Shown here piece by piece: positions 1,105 through 10,143 of a DNA stretch of 64,000 nt. Within the stretch, counting starts at the first letter, position 1. Each line of letters starts with the position of its first letter. The notes below the pieces were generated by a model. That model made no database searches. It was given only the letters and a program-made list of their open reading frames with translations, and had not been told where the DNA came from. The DNA lies in the NCBI RefSeq assembly GCF_014651675.1, contig NZ_BMXI01000006.1, forward strand, positions 124,001 to 188,000. The letters run 5' to 3'. The position numbers and the translations under genes are program-made. Origin of the DNA: Roseibacillus persicicus. Lineage in GTDB: Bacteria > Verrucomicrobiota > Verrucomicrobiia > Verrucomicrobiales > Akkermansiaceae.

Positions 1105-4100
1105 TTAAGCAGGTCTTTTGGTTGGCTCTTGAGGGTTTTTTGAGCAAAACGATTTCCAGTGCCTGGCAATCTCTTCCAAATTGAGCTCTTTACCTCCGGC
1201 TGAAAAAGCGTGGCGTTCCAGCTGTTGAATCTCACTACTGAGGTCCTTGGCCTGTTCGGCTGGGACATGTCCTTTGAGGTTTTTCAACCAGTGGAGCAAG
1301 CTCACCGCGGTCAAGGTGCTCGGCAAGGCCGGACCTCCCTCGACATCGGAGCCGGGACTCTGTTCGCTTTTGCGAGACCACTTCCAACCGAAGAAGGCGA
1401 TGAGCGCGAGAATGACCGCTGACAGCCAATACCAAAGAGGAGAGCTGGATGACTCTTCCAATTCCACCAATTCGTCCACGGGGATGAGGTCTACATCCTG
1501 ATACCGTTGGCGCAGGACTCCGTTTTCTTCGGCGAGTGACTTCATGGCGAAGGCGGTGAGGGTGGGAAAGGCAAATTGCTTGGGTGAATCGCCTTCGGGT
1601 TTCAGGGTCAGGCGATACTCGTGGGTCGATAGGGGTGCGCCGTCGTCTGTGTCTGTCGTCAGCTCTTCGACCTGAAGTTCACGGTCCTCGGTAGCGACGA
1701 CTTCAAAGCCTTTGGGCGGGAGATCGACTAATTCCTGCAACGACGCAACCAGCCCTTTGCCCGCAGTCTTTACCTCCAGGTTCCATTCGCCCTTTTCCTC
1801 CGCATTTCGTTCGTCGAGGGTCATGGTCACCTTGAGGTCTCGCACGGGGCGGGCGGTTGAGTCCGCGGTGGCGACGAGGGGGACGTTGGCCGAGCTGACC
1901 GGCAGCACCACGTGTCCGGAGGTGTCGAGAAAGTCCAAGTCAATTTTGAGGGGAGGGATGTTGTCGATTTGAGGGCCCTTCGCTTTCAGGAGAAAATAGG
2001 CGTATGGCGTGGTCCGCCATCCCAAGCGGGAAGAAGTGCGGGAGTCGATCTTGTCGGTGTGAAAAGTCAGCGAGACGACTTCGAAGTTTTCCTCCAAAGC
2101 GGTTCGGGCAGCCTTCTCGAATTTATCGCGATAGTCTTCGGTGGGGCGGCCGAAGTTGTATGAATACGAGACATTGTTCTGGTTCTGCAAGTAGCGTTGA
2201 AAGCCACCGGACTCTCTCTCGATCTCTTTGGTGTGGTGAAGGTTGACGAAGAGGCCAAAGGGTTCGGTGCCGACCTCGGCGGGCCCATCGAGGGTGGCGA
2301 TGAGTTCGATCTCGGTGACCAGATCCTTGTAGTAATCGTAGACTTCGGCCGCGCTTCCAATCTTCTCGTGCCGTCCCACGACATCGATTGCCGCTTGCAG
2401 GTAGCGGAACTTGAGATCCGGCGCGACGTTGGCCAGCCGATTGTTCAGCGTGGTCGCCAGCATGGCGTAGTGACGCTCGCGGATAGGTTCCGGAAGGGAG
2501 TCGAGGGCGCCTTTGATTTTTACAAATTCGGATTGCACCGGCATGTGATGGGCCTTCAACGCCTCCAGTAAAGGGGAACCCAAGGCCGCGTAAAACCAAG
2601 TTTCATACACCGCCGTGTTCTCCTCGCTCTTGTCCTCCATTGGCAAGGTCGCGGCGTAAAGTCTGGCCGCTTCCGCGAAGTCGTCCAAGGCCGTGCGCTT
2701 CGTGCTGGAGTGAGTCGCTTGGGGTTGGAGATTGGAAAGATAGTTGGACTCCTCGTAGACGATTGCGGCGAGTTGGGTGAGCAGTTGGGAGGACCCAATG
2801 TCGTTGCCCCAGGCCTTGGCCGTCACTTCGCGAGCCATCTCGTAGCCATCCAGGACCTGTTGGTGGAGCTCTTTGTCACGGCGCTTGGTGCCCGCAGCTT
2901 CCTGAACCTTGGGGTTCGGCCAGAGCGCGGCCAAGTTGATGCGCATTCTCTCAATCAGGGAGGCGATGACCTCGCTATCGAGAGCCTCGAGCTCGCCGAA
3001 CACTTTCTGCAAAGCCTCCAAACGCCAGACTTCTGCCTGGGAATGAACGGTGATGAAGGCGTTGGCGAATTCCTCATCGAATGCTTCATCAAGTTCCAGC
3101 TCGCGGACCTCGGTTACGAGGCCGGCAAGCTCCTTCAAATTGCGCTCTTGCTTCGAGCGGGTGAGAGGAATGGTCTCGGCATGATTGTTGTAGCCGTAGA
3201 AATAGGAGTAGCGGGAGCGATAGCGGTTGTTGAGGTTCGGATTGTGGTTCTCGGCCCAGACTGAGATCAGATTGCGGACAAGCTCTTTCGCGGTCTTGGG
3301 GCGGGACTCGGCTAGTTTCTCAATGAGAGGAAATGCTTTCTGATGTTCTTTGACCTTCAAGTAGAGACGTGGAATCTGCTCTAACAGTTGCTGGGCCACG
3401 GTCTCGTCGACTGCCGCAATCCACTTTTCGGAGGGAACCAGTTCCAGCAAGTCGCCGGTTGGAATGGGATTGGGACCCTTGCGGTCATTGTTGGCGTAGT
3501 AGTTCCGGGGGCCGTAGAAAACGTTCCCGTAGTTGTCGACTTGCATCTCTGGTCGGCTGGAGGTCGAGCGGTCGAATTGCAGGGTGACCTTGGCCTCTTG
3601 CAGCCAGTTGAGGGCGTAGATGGAAAAGATTTCTTCCCATTCAGAGAGGTCGATGCCCTTGGTCCCCAGAAGAGCCTCAGCCGCGCTTTTCTGCAGTTGG
3701 ATCTGCTGCTGGCGGATGCTGGCATCGCGAATCTGTTGCGATTGCGAGCCGAGGGTTCCGGCTGCGGCAAGAATCTCGAAGCCTTCCCCAGCTGGATCGG
3801 AGAAAGTCTCTTTCAGCCAGTTTTGACCGGTGCCCTCATCCAATTCAGGCACCAGAGAGAGCGCTCGATAGAGAGCTTCAAGCCGTTCGGGCATTTCCGC
3901 CTTCTTGAGGGACATGACTTCCAGTGAAAGCTCCCAAGCCAATGGGAGGTGGCTGGAGCCGAGAGCCTGGCGGTGCGCCTCGGCGTGATATCGCGAGAGA
4001 ATATTAAGTGCTTTGGTTTGTTCGAAGCTGCGCGCGGTGTCCAGGTCGGGAAGAAAATCAGAGGCCGCTTCCGTGAGGCCACCCTCGAGAAGAAGCTCGG

Positions 4101-4812
4101 AGGTGCGAAGTTGGGCGCTGGGGTCATCATTTCCAAAGTAGCGGGTTCCTTTTGCGAGAGTGGCGAGAAAGTTCGTCGGTGGATCCTCGGGCAGCAGCTT
4201 TGCCAAGGCTTGAATGGCCTGTTTGTCCGGCGCTTTTGGGGGGACATCGGCGAGGGCGAGGATGTCCGCGGTGCTGAAATAATTGGCCTGGTTGTGAGGA
4301 CGTGCCCCCATCGCCATTGCCTCGGGGCGGAGTATGACTGGGACGGGCTTGCCCAGTTCCTGAAGCAGTCGCAGGTAGGTTGCTGCCCCCAAGTCCTCGG
4401 GGAGGTTTTCCAAATAGCTTCTGACTTCATCCCAATTGCCCAGCACCACATTGCGGCGATACTCCTGGGCTTCTTGCTGGTATTTCTCGCGCAGCAGCTT
4501 CTGCTCATCTGGGGCTTCGGAAGGGGGAGCTGCTTTGGGCGGGCTGTCTTCCGGGTGACGGCTAAGGCTCTCTTCCTGAAGAATGCCCGAGGGACTCCGA
4601 TCGAACTTCAGCTTGCCCAGAATCTCTTTTCGAAAAGCTTCCGGCTCTTTTTGATTGCTGCTTGGGTTCGCGGCCGCAGCTTGGATTTGCGCTTGTTGAG
4701 CTTCTCCATTCGAATCGCCATGAAAGACGGGCATTTCGATGCGACTTTCGCCAATGGTGACTTGCCCGTTGAGGGTGGAGAGAAATAGAAGCGGAACCAG
4801 GGTGGATTTCAT
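1105..4812 (-). CDS. Giant BatD-like secreted/membrane protein with helical-repeat ectodomain
   Basis: This 1235-residue protein is the last gene of the MoxR/Bat-type operon. It has a signal peptide (residues 1-17), a long mostly helical and probably TPR-like ectodomain (about 90-880) with a Tyr/Asn-rich stretch, and then a beta-rich segment (about 940-1110). One membrane span (about 1125-1145, rich in Trp, Leu and Ile) is followed by a cytoplasmic helical tail of 90 residues. The beta segment, single span and helical tail match the layout of BatD (aerotolerance) proteins, but BatD is usually about half this length, so I read it as BatD with an added helical-repeat region. Assignment rests on layout and operon position, not on a clear motif. 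It would present a large periplasmic scaffold to the VWA proteins encoded upstream. Confidence 0.7.
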   Translation of the reverse strand: MKSTLVPLLFLSTLNGQVTIGESRIEMPVFHGDSNGEAQQAQIQAAAANPSSNQKEPEAFRKEILGKLKFDRSPSGILQEESLSRHPEDSPPKAAPPSEAPDEQKLLREKYQQEAQEYRRNVVLGNWDEVRSYLENLPEDLGAATYLRLLQELGKPVPVILRPEAMAMGARPHNQANYFSTADILALADVPPKAPDKQAIQALAKLLPEDPPTNFLATLAKGTRYFGNDDPSAQLRTSELLLEGGLTEAASDFLPDLDTARSFEQTKALNILSRYHAEAHRQALGSSHLPLAWELSLEVMSLKKAEMPERLEALYRALSLVPELDEGTGQNWLKETFSDPAGEGFEILAAAGTLGSQSQQIRDASIRQQQIQLQKSAAEALLGTKGIDLSEWEEIFSIYALNWLQEAKVTLQFDRSTSSRPEMQVDNYGNVFYGPRNYYANNDRKGPNPIPTGDLLELVPSEKWIAAVDETVAQQLLEQIPRLYLKVKEHQKAFPLIEKLAESRPKTAKELVRNLISVWAENHNPNLNNRYRSRYSYFYGYNNHAETIPLTRSKQERNLKELAGLVTEVRELELDEAFDEEFANAFITVHSQAEVWRLEALQKVFGELEALDSEVIASLIERMRINLAALWPNPKVQEAAGTKRRDKELHQQVLDGYEMAREVTAKAWGNDIGSSQLLTQLAAIVYEESNYLSNLQPQATHSSTKRTALDDFAEAARLYAATLPMEDKSEENTAVYETWFYAALGSPLLEALKAHHMPVQSEFVKIKGALDSLPEPIRERHYAMLATTLNNRLANVAPDLKFRYLQAAIDVVGRHEKIGSAAEVYDYYKDLVTEIELIATLDGPAEVGTEPFGLFVNLHHTKEIERESGGFQRYLQNQNNVSYSYNFGRPTEDYRDKFEKAARTALEENFEVVSLTFHTDKIDSRTSSRLGWRTTPYAYFLLKAKGPQIDNIPPLKIDLDFLDTSGHVVLPVSSANVPLVATADSTARPVRDLKVTMTLDERNAEEKGEWNLEVKTAGKGLVASLQELVDLPPKGFEVVATEDRELQVEELTTDTDDGAPLSTHEYRLTLKPEGDSPKQFAFPTLTAFAMKSLAEENGVLRQRYQDVDLIPVDELVELEESSSSPLWYWLSAVILALIAFFGWKWSRKSEQSPGSDVEGGPALPSTLTAVSLLHWLKNLKGHVPAEQAKDLSSEIQQLERHAFSAGGKELNLEEIARHWKSFCSKNPQEPTKRPA

Positions 4813-4847: not shown

Positions 4848-5549
4848 TTAACTGCCGGAGCCGTCAGGGGGAGGTCCTGCTCCCGCACCACGAGCATCTT
4901 GTGGCTTTTTGCCAGGGTTGGAGCCGGGTTTCGATTTCGGGCGACCGCCCGAAGAGCATCCCTGTCATTGGTTGGGGATGGGGAGTCCGTAGAGCTCGGC
5001 CGGGTCCATGCGCGCGAGGCGAATGACGGCTTCCAAATCGTCAGCGGATGTTTTCGCCAAGGAGCGGTCGCTGGCGTTTTCCGCGAGTAACTTATACTCT
5101 TGGCGAGCGGCTTCGATTTCGGGTTCCCACATGGCGTCGGGCAGGCCTTCCAGTTTCATGAGATAGGTCATGTAGTAGCGGGCATTGGCCAGAGCGGCGC
5201 GGGTTTCGTCCCGCAAGCCGGGGTCGGCATCCGGATCGGTGTCGAGCACGAGCATCAGTTCGACGAGTTCATCGCGAGCTTCGGGGAGTTTGCTATTGAG
5301 CATCTTGGCCTTCGCGATTTCCAGTTCGAGCCGGCGGCCGAGAGTCACTTCTTCTTTGGGAAGTTTGCTCATGGCTTCCTCCCAGTTTTTGATTGCGGAG
5401 GCGTAGTCCTCTTCCTTGAGCGCGTTGTCGGCCTTGGCGATGAGGGACTGGGCATCATCGAGTTTGAGCTGATCTTGCCCGGGCCCGAAGTGCCAGGCCG
5501 CGAAGGCGAGAGGCACAAGGAGCCAGAGGGTGGTGAGGGCGATTTTCAT
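4848..5549 (-). CDS. BatC-like TPR protein, candidate selenoprotein (in-frame TGA at 4965-4967)
   Basis: The frame runs from the ATG at 5549. It encodes a signal anchor (LTTLWLLVPLAFAAW), then two or three TPR-like helical pairs (about residues 30-190), and meets TGA at codon 195. The same frame then continues for 38 codons to TAA (4848-4850), coding for a Gly/Pro/Lys/Ser-rich tail that begins QGCSSGG. If TGA is read as selenocysteine, the junction is U-Q-G-C (Sec195, Cys198), a UxxC redox-type motif. On the coding strand TTCGGGC-GGTC-GCCCGAA (4936-4953) forms a perfect hairpin beginning 12 nt after the TGA, as bacterial SECIS elements do. If the TGA stops translation, the product is 194 residues. 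BatC-like TPR proteins normally sit between the VWA pair and BatD, as here. Sec insertion is an inference. Confidence 0.6.
4936..4967 (-). promoter_or_regulatory. Candidate bacterial SECIS element after in-frame TGA
   Basis: Read on the minus strand, TGA (4967-4965) is followed by 11 nt, then a 7-bp perfect stem (TTCGGGC with GCCCGAA) closed by the tetraloop GGTC. The loop lies at +19 to +22 after the TGA. From memory this is the position of the GGUC in the E. coli fdhF SECIS loop, where SelB binds. The hairpin has no T-run after it, so it does not look like a terminator. A chance GC-rich palindrome in a Gly/Arg/Pro-coding stretch cannot be excluded. Confidence 0.5.
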
Positions 5550-5588: not shown

Positions 5589-6542
5589 TCACGGAGACAA
5601 TTTTTTTCGATCAGTTAGGAGATAGAGAATGAGAGGTAAAGAAGCGAGCAGGAAAGAGGCCAGCGCGATGGCAAACAGCGCGTATTCGCGCAGGGTGAGT
5701 TGTTGTTTTTCGGCGGAGACTTTCAAGCTGCCGAGACTGCGGAGGGTGGCGGTGGGGACGTGCTTGAGGTTGCCATCGTGATACTCGCCCCCCAGACGAT
5801 TGGCGATCTCGCGCAGGGTGGAAACATCCTGTCGCGACTGGCGACCGTCGATGAGGGTGCCTTTCATCGGGTCGCCCACGCCTACGACCAGGGCTCCGCC
5901 CACTGAGGAGGGCATGCGCGGCATTCCGGAGGGGGGGACGGTGTCTCCATCGGAAATGAGAACCAGGGTGGCGCTGTCCGGTCGCCAGTCTTTCGCGATT
6001 TTGGCCGCTTCTTCCAAACCCGCGAAGAGGCGCGTTTTGCCGACCTCGAAGGCATACTGCATATTCAAGTCGTTGAGGATATTGAGCAGCACCTCGCGGT
6101 CGCGGGATTCTTTCACTACCGGCTTGGCTCCGCTATAGGTCGCGATGACGGTGAAGTGCATTTTCTCGTCCGAGACCCGTTCTAACAGCGAGCTGACGAG
6201 CGAGGAGGCCCGTCGGCTTCGTGAGTCTTTGCCCACTTCGCCCGCATCCTGGAGTCGCATGGAGGGCGAGACATCAAGGACGAGAAGGAGGTGCTCGCGT
6301 TCCTTGGGCTCGATGGACTTCATCTTGGAGCGGTGGGCCTTGGGTGGGAGGAGGAAAAGAGTCGTCAGGGCCCAGGCTAGGGCCGTGAGGGTCAGCACCC
6401 GAACCAAGGGGGCGACCACAAAGAGAGCGCGCGGAACTTGCGGCATCAGGGGCTGGACGAGTGCGACGCGCCGCGCGTGCACGAACTCGGCGACCACTAC
6501 GAGAATCGTAGTAGCGAGAGCGACGAGGATAGGCGTGGTCAT
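5589..6542 (-). CDS. VWA-domain membrane protein (BatB-like)
   Basis: 317 residues from the ATG at 6542, one base after the stop of the upstream VWA gene. N-terminal membrane segments (about residues 2-17 and 45-65) precede a von Willebrand A domain with the MIDAS motif DVSPS in LVLDVSPSMRLQD. A later SDGD supplies another metal-ligand turn. A C-terminal span (YALFAIALASFLLASLPLILYLL) is followed by a short basic tail. This layout of two spans, VWA, one span is that of BatA/BatB proteins, which form complexes with each other and are thought to be handled by the MoxR ATPase. The next gene downstream, 39 bp away, is the BatC-like TPR gene. The VWA ligand is unknown. Confidence 0.85.
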   Translation of the reverse strand: MTTPILVALATTILVVVAEFVHARRVALVQPLMPQVPRALFVVAPLVRVLTLTALAWALTTLFLLPPKAHRSKMKSIEPKEREHLLLVLDVSPSMRLQDAGEVGKDSRSRRASSLVSSLLERVSDEKMHFTVIATYSGAKPVVKESRDREVLLNILNDLNMQYAFEVGKTRLFAGLEEAAKIAKDWRPDSATLVLISDGDTVPPSGMPRMPSSVGGALVVGVGDPMKGTLIDGRQSRQDVSTLREIANRLGGEYHDGNLKHVPTATLRSLGSLKVSAEKQQLTLREYALFAIALASFLLASLPLILYLLTDRKKLSP

Positions 6543-6543
6543 C

Positions 6544-7458
6544 TTACCAAGGGTTGTAGCGCAGGCCAAAGAGGGTGAGGAGGTGCAGTCCGGTGACTGC
6601 GAAGCAGGCGAAAATGAAGGGCGTGAAGTTGTCGACGGGGTCGGGCGTCAGGCGCTTGATGCGGGACTGCTTCATGGTGTCGATTTGCTTGAAGACGGCA
6701 TCGAGGGCTGCGGGGTCTCCAGCCGAAAAATATTGCCCGCCGGTGATGGAGGCCATCACGGAGACCTCGGGCGGAGGACCGCCATCGGCCACGTGCACGC
6801 CGTAAAGGACGATGCCATTGTCCTTCAGCGAATTCGCGATTTCGACATCCTTGCCATTAGAGAGGTCAAAGGATTGGCCATCGGTGATGAGGAGGATCAT
6901 GCGGTCGCCTTCCTCGCGCGAGACCAGCACATCCTCGCAGGCGCGGACCGCTTTGCCTATCTCGGTGCCGCCGAACCAGCTGGGGAGTTTGGTGGGATGG
7001 AGAAAGGGCGGAGCGCACCGAAAAGCGGAAACATCAGTGGTGAGCGGGACCCAGTGCATGAAACTGTTTCCAAAAATCGTGAGCCCAAAGGAGTCGCCCT
7101 TGCGGTAGTCGATGAAGCCATTGACGGCCTCCATGGCGGCATCGAAGCGGTCACCATCACCGAAGGGTGCTGTCATGGAACCCGAGACATCGATGCAAAA
7201 TTGGATGTTGGTCATCTCGCGTTCGGAGCGGGGTTGCTCGAACTTGCGGGGACCGGCCAAGAGGACGATGGCGAGCGCGAGAAGGAAGGCGGGCAGGGTG
7301 CCGGCGAAATCTAACAGGAGCGTCAGCAGGCGGCGGCGTTTGTGGGGGTGATGGTCACTGGGGAGGGCGACGGCCTGACCCTTGTGGCGATACTGAAAGA
7401 CGAGAAGCCCAATGGGGATCGCGAGAAGTAGCAGAACAAATGGGTGGGCCAAAAGCAT
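6544..7458 (-). CDS. VWA-domain membrane protein (BatA-like)
   Basis: 304 residues. Two N-terminal hydrophobic spans (about 2-23 and 45-67) come before a VWA domain with the MIDAS motif DVSGS (IQFCIDVSGSMTAP), and a C-terminal span (FIFACFAVTGLHLLTLFGL) closes the protein. VWA proteins of this type sit in the inner membrane with the VWA domain outside the lipid core and bind partners through a divalent metal. The start lies 4 bp after the preceding stop and its own stop is one base from the next ATG, so translation is probably coupled. It pairs with the downstream BatB-like gene as the two VWA partners of the MoxR/Bat operon. Confidence 0.87.
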   Translation of the reverse strand: MLLAHPFVLLLLAIPIGLLVFQYRHKGQAVALPSDHHPHKRRRLLTLLLDFAGTLPAFLLALAIVLLAGPRKFEQPRSEREMTNIQFCIDVSGSMTAPFGDGDRFDAAMEAVNGFIDYRKGDSFGLTIFGNSFMHWVPLTTDVSAFRCAPPFLHPTKLPSWFGGTEIGKAVRACEDVLVSREEGDRMILLITDGQSFDLSNGKDVEIANSLKDNGIVLYGVHVADGGPPPEVSVMASITGGQYFSAGDPAALDAVFKQIDTMKQSRIKRLTPDPVDNFTPFIFACFAVTGLHLLTLFGLRYNPW

Positions 7459-7461
7459 GGG

Positions 7462-8241
7462 TCAGCTGCGGTAGGGGGTCAGGAGTTCTTGGATTTCTTC
7501 ATCGCTGACGGCGGAGTCACGGCTGTGCAGCCAGCGTTCCAGTTGCAGAAGAAGCGGGGAGGCTTCGGGATGTTTGCGCAGATGAGCCAGGGACTCGGAA
7601 GTCGGGAGGTTGGCGACTTCCGGCACTTTCTTCCGCCAATGTCCCAAAACCAGTCGTTCCAAACGGGCTCGTTCGTCGGTATTGAGTTCCTCTTGAGAAG
7701 CCTTTTTCAAAAGAGGTTCCAGCCGTTCGGCCAAAGTGGGTTCCGGGGTGATGGTTGCGGTAGAGTTTGCATTCTTGCGTCCCGCAAAAAGAACCCAAAC
7801 CAAACCCGAAACCCAAACAAGTCCAAGTACCCAAAGAAGAGCGCGGTAGCCACCCACCCGCGGGAGAGGCTTGGGCTGCAGTTCGGCGGGGCGGGGGAGG
7901 CCGGGTGGCAAGGCGGTGGTGATGGTGATTGGTACTTGGTGGGACGAGTGCCCGGATTCGCTTTGCGCTTCGCGTAGAAACTCTCCCAAGTTGTAATCTC
8001 CCGCATCGAGGCCCTGGACCTCGATGGTGTAGCGGAAGCCGTCTTGGGCCGGCTTCACCTCGACCATCCGCAGCATTAAGGGGATTTCTCGAGTGGTGCG
8101 CGGGACGGGTTCCAGCAAAGGGCCCTTCAAATACAGATCCTCTAACAGGAGCGGCAGGCCGACGCGTTGGGTGGGCGTTTCGCCTAACAGGTGGGTGGTG
8201 GCAAAGAGGAAAGCTAAGAATGCGAGGAGCCAGTTCTTCAT
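7462..8241 (-). CDS. BatD-like/DUF4381-like single-span membrane protein of the MoxR operon
   Basis: 259 residues: a cleavable signal peptide (MKNWLLAFLAFLFATTHLLG), an exported beta-type domain (about 25-135), one membrane span (ALLWVLGLVWVSGLVWVLFAG, about 140-160) and a C-terminal helical region of about 95 residues. Its ATG overlaps the end of the DUF58 gene by 4 bp and its stop is 3 bp before the VWA gene. In MoxR operons this slot, between DUF58 and the first VWA, is usually taken by a small membrane anchor (DUF4381) or a short BatD-type protein, and this sequence fits that role. I see no catalytic motif. Confidence 0.7.
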   Translation of the reverse strand: MKNWLLAFLAFLFATTHLLGETPTQRVGLPLLLEDLYLKGPLLEPVPRTTREIPLMLRMVEVKPAQDGFRYTIEVQGLDAGDYNLGEFLREAQSESGHSSHQVPITITTALPPGLPRPAELQPKPLPRVGGYRALLWVLGLVWVSGLVWVLFAGRKNANSTATITPEPTLAERLEPLLKKASQEELNTDERARLERLVLGHWRKKVPEVANLPTSESLAHLRKHPEASPLLLQLERWLHSRDSAVSDEEIQELLTPYRS

Positions 8242-9086
8242 CGCGAAAGCAGGTTGCGGGATTGGAGAAAGAGCCGGAGAGCGGCGAGAAAGGGTTGGTC
8301 CGTGCGGAGCAGAAAGTGGTCGATGGAGGCGCCTTGTAGGTCGGCGACGGCGTCTGCGGTGCTGGCGAATTGATGCTTTGCGGGGGCGGTCACCGTGCGG
8401 GCGCTTTCCGCATCGCGGGCGCGAAGGATTCCGGCTCCGGCCAAGCCGTCTTCCGCCGGGTCGCGGAGAAGGATGGTGACTAGATCGTGTCGGCCGTTGA
8501 CGAGCTTCAGCGCCGGAATCGCTTCCGGGTCGTGGAGGTCGGAAAGGACGAAGATGAGTGAGCGCTGCTTGAGGGAGGGATTGAGCGCGAGGAGCTTTTC
8601 ACCCAGCTGGGTCTTTTCCACAAAGTCAAAGTGGCGCAGTTGATGGAGCCAGAGGAGGAGGGTTTCGCGTGAGAGCGAAGGCGAGATCTTGAGGTCGCGC
8701 GAACCCGCCGCCATTAATCCCACTGGAGAAACCCGATCGAGACAGGCCAGGGCCAGGCCCCCGGCGATTTGCACTGCCAGTTGATACTTGGAGAGCTTGG
8801 TCGAGCTGAGGGTCATGGAGGCCGAGCTATCGACCACGAACCAGACCGGCAGTTGTTTAGGTGTTTCGTATTCCTTGATGTGCGGCACTCCCGTGCGGGC
8901 CGTGACCCGCCAGTCGATGGTCTTCACCGGGTCGCCGGGGACGTAGGGACGCGATTGCACGTATTCCAAGCCCGAACCGAGGAAAGGACTGCGATCGGTG
9001 CCGTAACTGAGGGAGTCGGCGAGCCGTTTGATAGCGATCACGAATTGCCGCGAGTCAAGGGGATCGGTCTGTTGCAGGGAGGGCAT
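8238..9086 (-). CDS. DUF58-family protein of the MoxR/Bat operon
   Basis: About 282 residues from the ATG at 9086; an upstream in-frame TTG at 9116 would add ten residues and looks less likely. It contains the DUF58 hallmark YVPGDPVKTIDWRVTART and, about 35 residues later, VWFVVDSSASM, a degenerate MIDAS-like turn at the start of the VWA-like fold that DUF58 resembles. DUF58 genes nearly always follow MoxR genes, and here the MoxR gene ends 64 bp upstream. The product is probably cytoplasmic and partners MoxR in maturing or remodelling the membrane VWA proteins. The 3' end overlaps the next gene by 4 bp. Confidence 0.9.
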   Translation of the reverse strand: MPSLQQTDPLDSRQFVIAIKRLADSLSYGTDRSPFLGSGLEYVQSRPYVPGDPVKTIDWRVTARTGVPHIKEYETPKQLPVWFVVDSSASMTLSSTKLSKYQLAVQIAGGLALACLDRVSPVGLMAAGSRDLKISPSLSRETLLLWLHQLRHFDFVEKTQLGEKLLALNPSLKQRSLIFVLSDLHDPEAIPALKLVNGRHDLVTILLRDPAEDGLAGAGILRARDAESARTVTAPAKHQFASTADAVADLQGASIDHFLLRTDQPFLAALRLFLQSRNLLSR

Positions 9087-9150
9087 GAACTGATTTTTTA
9101 CCACGAAGGCCACCAAAGACGCGAATCCCGGGCTTTCGTTTTTCGAAAAG

Positions 9151-10143
<993 letters not shown>

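Follow-up and report, generated by a model that had tools for sequence, protein, structure and literature searches.

The question raised by this locus of Roseibacillus persicicus is whether an in-frame TGA in a BatC-like TPR gene ends the protein or is read as selenocysteine (Sec). The window, that is the whole 64,000-nt stretch of contig NZ_BMXI01000006.1 analysed here, carries on its minus strand an ORF that starts with the ATG at 5549 and comprises 194 codons up to the TGA at 4967-4965. The original prediction held that the same frame runs on for 38 codons to a TAA, and direct inspection of the sequence bears this out, with 38 in-frame sense codons leading to the TAA at 4850-4848. Without readthrough the next ATG (4812) lies 152 nt away, and with readthrough 35 nt, as had been predicted; the remaining junctions of the operon measure 34, -4, 3, -26 and 39 nt. 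Only the 64 nt given earlier for the gap after MoxR did not stand, as this gap shrinks to 34 nt when the DUF58 gene is taken to begin at its upstream TTG.

We contend, with high confidence in the decoding of the TGA as Sec, that the gene product is a 233-residue selenoprotein rather than a 194-residue protein, and that the TGA of the BatC-like protein is very probably read as Sec in dozens of species from two phyla. The coding nature of the tail, the equivalence of Sec and Cys, a conserved and covarying SECIS and the presence of the Sec machinery are strongly supported by computation. The features of the locus are listed in the table.

Table. Features of the BatC-like locus and its operon, with positions in the window
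Feature	Positions	Strand	Evidence
BatC-like TPR protein, codons 1-194 (N-terminal membrane anchor, probable, and TPR solenoid)	4968..5549	minus	ORF, AlphaFold2, Foldseek
Predicted hydrophobic helix at the N-terminus (residues 2-21), a probable signal anchor	5487..5546	minus	MKIALTTLWLLVPLAFAAWHF in sequence, model helix; topology inferred
UGA codon very probably read as selenocysteine, residue 195	4965..4967	minus	TGA/Cys in aligned members, Sec machinery
C-terminal tail QGCSSGGRP...DGSGS, residues 196-233, very probably Sec-dependent	4851..4964	minus	homologues, pN/pS, pLDDT ~50
SECIS-like hairpin, 7-bp stem and GGUC tetraloop	4936..4953	minus	recoding, covariation, fdhF comparison
True stop codon TAA	4848..4850	minus	read in sequence
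MoxR-type AAA+ ATPase (AAA_3, AAA_lid_2)	9151..10143	minus	domain match
DUF58 protein	8238..9116	minus	domain match
259-aa protein without family match, with homologues in synteny at most loci	7462..8241	minus	
VWA protein, BatA-like	6544..7458	minus	family/domain match
VWA protein, BatB-like	5589..6569	minus	family/domain match
1235-aa protein with no matching family; its place downstream of the selenoprotein gene is conserved	1105..4812	minus	73/80 loci

Homologues were drawn from a search of relatives, an order-wide profile search that found the family in 73/387 genomes, and a scan of named genomes, for which the best 80 of 156 relatives were taken. A deep sister clade with a different tail was set aside, as were homologues from a different family within the order, where the match stops short of the Sec site. 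The analysis reveals one family spanning Verrucomicrobiota and Planctomycetota, and the residue at the TGA, which the original prediction had named as the point to examine, is Cys in some members and TGA in the remainder. Among 141 classified copies (duplicates included), 107 have a TGA at the same place followed by the conserved tail and 34 have Cys, which corresponds to 61 distinct Sec tails and 22 distinct Cys tails. Rubritalea profundi (L093) is among the species with the TGA form, and Luteolibacter and Haloferula include species with the Cys form. Every aligned full-length member of the U/C clade carries one or the other, the Sec/Cys column belongs to the 19 that do not vary in 40 diverse members, and the tail of the Cys forms is continuous and free of TGA. 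Sequencing error as the source of the TGA was dropped because the same codon recurs in many independent assemblies. A near-identical copy of the Akkermansiaceae type on a contig filed as Rhodobiaceae (Alphaproteobacteria; L078) probably reflects a binning error.

The tail follows the pattern UxGC...DxRGAGxGPPxDGxGS, with its C-terminal DxRGAGxGPPxDGxGS conserved, and the U-Q-G-C motif that had been predicted from reading the TGA as Sec recurs in the homologues as UxGC. This motif is present in 53/61 distinct Sec tails, one of which reads UxGCU (L107/L159); seven others have UxGTU (L136, L137, L142, L143, L144, L149 and L151) and one has UxGU (L152/L175). There are accordingly two-Sec members, in which two in-frame UGAs lie 2-3 codons apart. 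In nearly all of these a single GGUC hairpin is placed relative to the second UGA, at +22 or +25, with L137 irregular. In 14 pairs of TGA-form genes the pN/pS of the tail ranged from 0.02 to 0.37 and that of the core from 0.12 to 0.49, and within each pair the value of the tail was below that of the core or about equal to it. The tail is coding sequence under purifying selection, as strong as that on the core or stronger.

Eleven nt past the TGA begins a perfect 7-bp stem (TTCGGGC/GCCCGAA) with GGUC as its loop, at 4943-4946 of the minus strand, so that spacer, stem and loop are all as the original prediction described them. The loop begins 19 nt past the TGA and occupies +22 to +25 counted from the U of the UGA; comparison with the E. 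coli K-12 fdhF sequence, where the GGUC of the known SECIS also lies at +22, confirmed the likeness in spacing that the original prediction had named. Of the window's 2055 TGA triplets, this is the sole case in which a stem longer than 5 bp carries GGUC as its loop at +18..+34. When the tail of the window was recoded synonymously with its amino acids kept, a GGUC hairpin with a stem of at least 6 bp arose with P = 0.00015. Rfam gave no SECIS match at the UGA region, and the 53-nt stretch shows no unusual stability when only its fold is considered (z = -0.25), which means that generic folding energy would miss the hairpin. The original prediction had proposed a bacterial SECIS check of 4936-4967, and a hairpin of the bacterial type proved to be present, conserved and covarying. 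GGUC occurs downstream of the TGA in 65/65 distinct TGA-form sequences, and in 61 of the 65 it caps a perfect stem of 4 bp or longer as a tetraloop, mostly at +22, +25 or +31, whereas synonymous recoding with the codon usage of each gene itself leads one to expect 1.6. Stem pairs 2-5 are kept in 44, 43, 43 and 39 of 45 distinct hairpins, where shuffled controls averaged 21-25 and never exceeded 34, and the stems covary with many G-C to C-G exchanges.

Decoding by this route calls for the Sec machinery, for which the genome of R. persicicus (5.28 Mb, 97.5% complete) was searched piecewise. All the components that the original prediction had asked after are present in this same genome: selA (459 bits), selB (324 bits, above the cut-off), a Sec-type selD (374 bits) whose frame likewise holds a TGA (CAGUASK), and a tRNA-Sec with anticodon TCA. 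The hairpin downstream of this selD, itself a Sec gene (C13:136723-137652, L018), is apparently not of the GGUC type.

The form of the gene also tracks selA across genomes. In the order set, selA was found in 34/37 TGA-form genomes and 0/13 Cys-form genomes (Fisher 1.6e-9); of the three TGA-form genomes without a full match, two are 59% and 53% complete and the third contains a selA fragment only. For the set of named genomes, which is largely planctomycete, selA was found in 28/29 TGA-form versus 3/14 Cys-form genomes (7e-7), and the TGA-form genome without a full selA there (L105) appears to be the same genome as the selA-fragment case. The core tree requires at least 5 exchanges between Sec and Cys, 2 of them forced by strongly supported branches. 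Phylogenetic independence of the correlation comes down to 2 supported independent pairs (1.7 in the same direction, 0 opposite). Since the correlation largely reflects shared ancestry, with just these 2 pairs, we regard it as supporting rather than decisive. Three genomes of the window's genus (G001-G003) have selA and lack a homologue of the BatC-like gene, which implies that other selenoproteins exist there.

Termination is the default reading of TGA, and the unremarkable bare fold would fit an ordinary stop followed by an untranslated leader or a decayed coding sequence. Such an account is extremely improbable given that the tail is conserved over two phyla at low pN/pS and that no full-length U/C-clade homologue was seen to end at the TGA position with its tail lost; for the family it is contradicted by the Cys-form homologues, in which translation passes across the site. 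Translation past the TGA could also be achieved by a near-cognate tRNA (Trp or other), giving a protein of two lengths and no Sec. Readthrough of UGA by Trp-tRNA is known in bacteria and two product lengths could be useful, but the residue opposite the TGA in the 34 non-TGA copies is always Cys and never Trp, the GGUC hairpin is confined to TGA forms (0/22 Cys forms have it), and the TGA forms track selA, all of which makes this route very unlikely.

A further alternative accepts the selenoprotein and differs in what its tail does, namely binding of a metal (Cu or Zn, for example) that the VWA/MoxR complex would receive or guard, with CxxCxSGxC as the sulphur version of the site. We consider this a serious rival because the Cys forms are rich in Cys: 3-6 Cys fall within the first 12 tail residues in 22/22 of them, compared with at most one in Sec forms, and the tails are rich in Gly and Lys. 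Loss of Sec is accompanied by added cysteines, CxxCxSGxC standing in place of UxGCxSGG (Cys loci such as L026, L030, L106, L128 and L134). Against metal binding, the Sec forms keep just the U and one C in 53/61 cases, which are few ligands for a stable metal site, and UxxC spacing is typical of redox selenoproteins (PMC13188914). On this evidence metal binding is a possibility we hold to be rather unlikely, and a redox role of the UxxC tail, as suggested by the motif, is plausible and modestly favoured.

The setting of the tail may be described from the structural model and from synteny. In the AlphaFold2 model residues 2-186 are all-helical, with pLDDT mostly >90, and comprise a helix (2-21), which is a probable membrane anchor judging by sequence and model, and a TPR solenoid up to residue 186, followed by a flexible tail of pLDDT about 50. 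Foldseek places the model next to TPR domains and BamD, with 0.004 as the best E, and Pfam and NCBIfam gave TPR/BamD-type matches below threshold only. The TPR fold expected of a BatC is thus seen in the model and its neighbours, and the MoxR and VWA genes expected beside a BatC are co-encoded in the window and in most loci with enough flank. In most of these loci the order is MoxR, DUF58, the 259-aa protein, two VWA genes, the BatC-like gene and a gene for a protein of ~1235 aa, and the MoxR/DUF58/VWA synteny is common to Sec and Cys forms. The label BatC-like is a provisional one, based solely on synteny and the predicted TPR fold. In some marine Akkermansiaceae (L080, 3986-5940) an insertion of ~2 kb separates the selenoprotein gene from the second VWA gene; judged by eye, it holds an opposite-strand hydrolase-like ORF and a 212-aa flavin-reductase-like ORF. 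The original prediction took the link between MoxR/Bat operons and stress resistance as established; where oxidative stress is concerned, the functional link is weak: deletion of all bat genes in Leptospira biflexa produced no oxidative-stress phenotype (PMC3557215), and an oxidative-stress role for Bat is for that reason insecure.

We propose that SelB would bind the GGUC hairpin and deliver Sec-tRNA(Sec) to the UGA at 4967-4965, whereupon the ribosome would place selenocysteine at residue 195 and continue through the flexible tail; where insertion failed, the protein would terminate after the TPR domain. The N-terminal helix would hold the protein in the membrane, and both the TPR solenoid and the UxxC tail probably face the periplasm. 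A reversible selenenylsulfide would most likely form there between the selenolate and the Cys located three positions further along, a pair that could reduce or sense oxidised partners of the co-encoded MoxR/DUF58/VWA complex. Membrane anchoring, periplasmic exposure, the UxxC redox pair and the partnership with MoxR and VWA are what we infer. Lineages without the Sec machinery have Cys at the site together with further cysteines in the tail. In a broader sense, we lean towards an uncatalogued, widespread family of exported TPR scaffolds in which one or two Sec residues form a selenium-dependent redox arm of the MoxR/VWA (Bat) system, a little-understood complex of the AAA+ chaperone-like kind, and in whose two-Sec members one hairpin would serve two UGAs.

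The BatC-like TPR selenoproteins are very probably a new family of bacterial selenoproteins. The statement that no selenoprotein of this family had been described agrees with what was found: an inventory from May 2026 that covers 119 families and subfamilies of prokaryotic selenoproteins, those of Haft and Tolstoy (2025) among them, lists nothing under TPR or Bat (PMC13188914), NCBIfam (June 2026) has no model above cut-off for the BatC-like protein, and literature text searches returned no TPR/Bat selenoprotein, with a prior mention possible among planctomycete candidates (PMC4807772). The family would add the TPR solenoid, a fold outside this inventory, and combines a spread over two phyla with repeated exchange of Sec and Cys. 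Since standard annotation would end these proteins at residue 194, databases probably lack the putative redox tail. The family would give the MoxR/Bat system, of unsettled biochemical role, a concrete chemical handle, and the pattern of exchange (one Sec and one Cys versus 3-6 Cys) could be exploited as a natural experiment on the benefit of selenium.

Several known systems resemble parts of this arrangement. E. coli formate dehydrogenase H (fdhF) shares the GGUC loop at +22 and a dependence on selA/B/C/D, which is expected for the BatC-like selenoprotein. It is however an unrelated protein with its Sec in a Mo active site, whereas the Sec of the BatC-like protein would lie in a flexible C-terminal tail after the TPR domain. 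The E. coli SECIS stem has a bulged U, which is not evident in the hairpin of the window. The eukaryotic proteins SELENOK and SELENOS span the membrane once, carry Sec close to the end of a flexible tail rich in Gly and Pro, and act near an AAA+ ATPase. This likeness is an analogy only, as they use a eukaryotic 3' UTR SECIS, unlike the BatC-like gene, and we know of no sequence relation between them and the BatC-like selenoprotein. BatC of the Bat (Bacteroides aerotolerance)/MoxR system is likewise a TPR protein encoded with a MoxR AAA+ ATPase, a DUF58 protein and two VWA proteins; compared with it, the protein of the window is distinguished by its Sec/Cys tail and by the 1235-aa gene without Pfam match that lies downstream.
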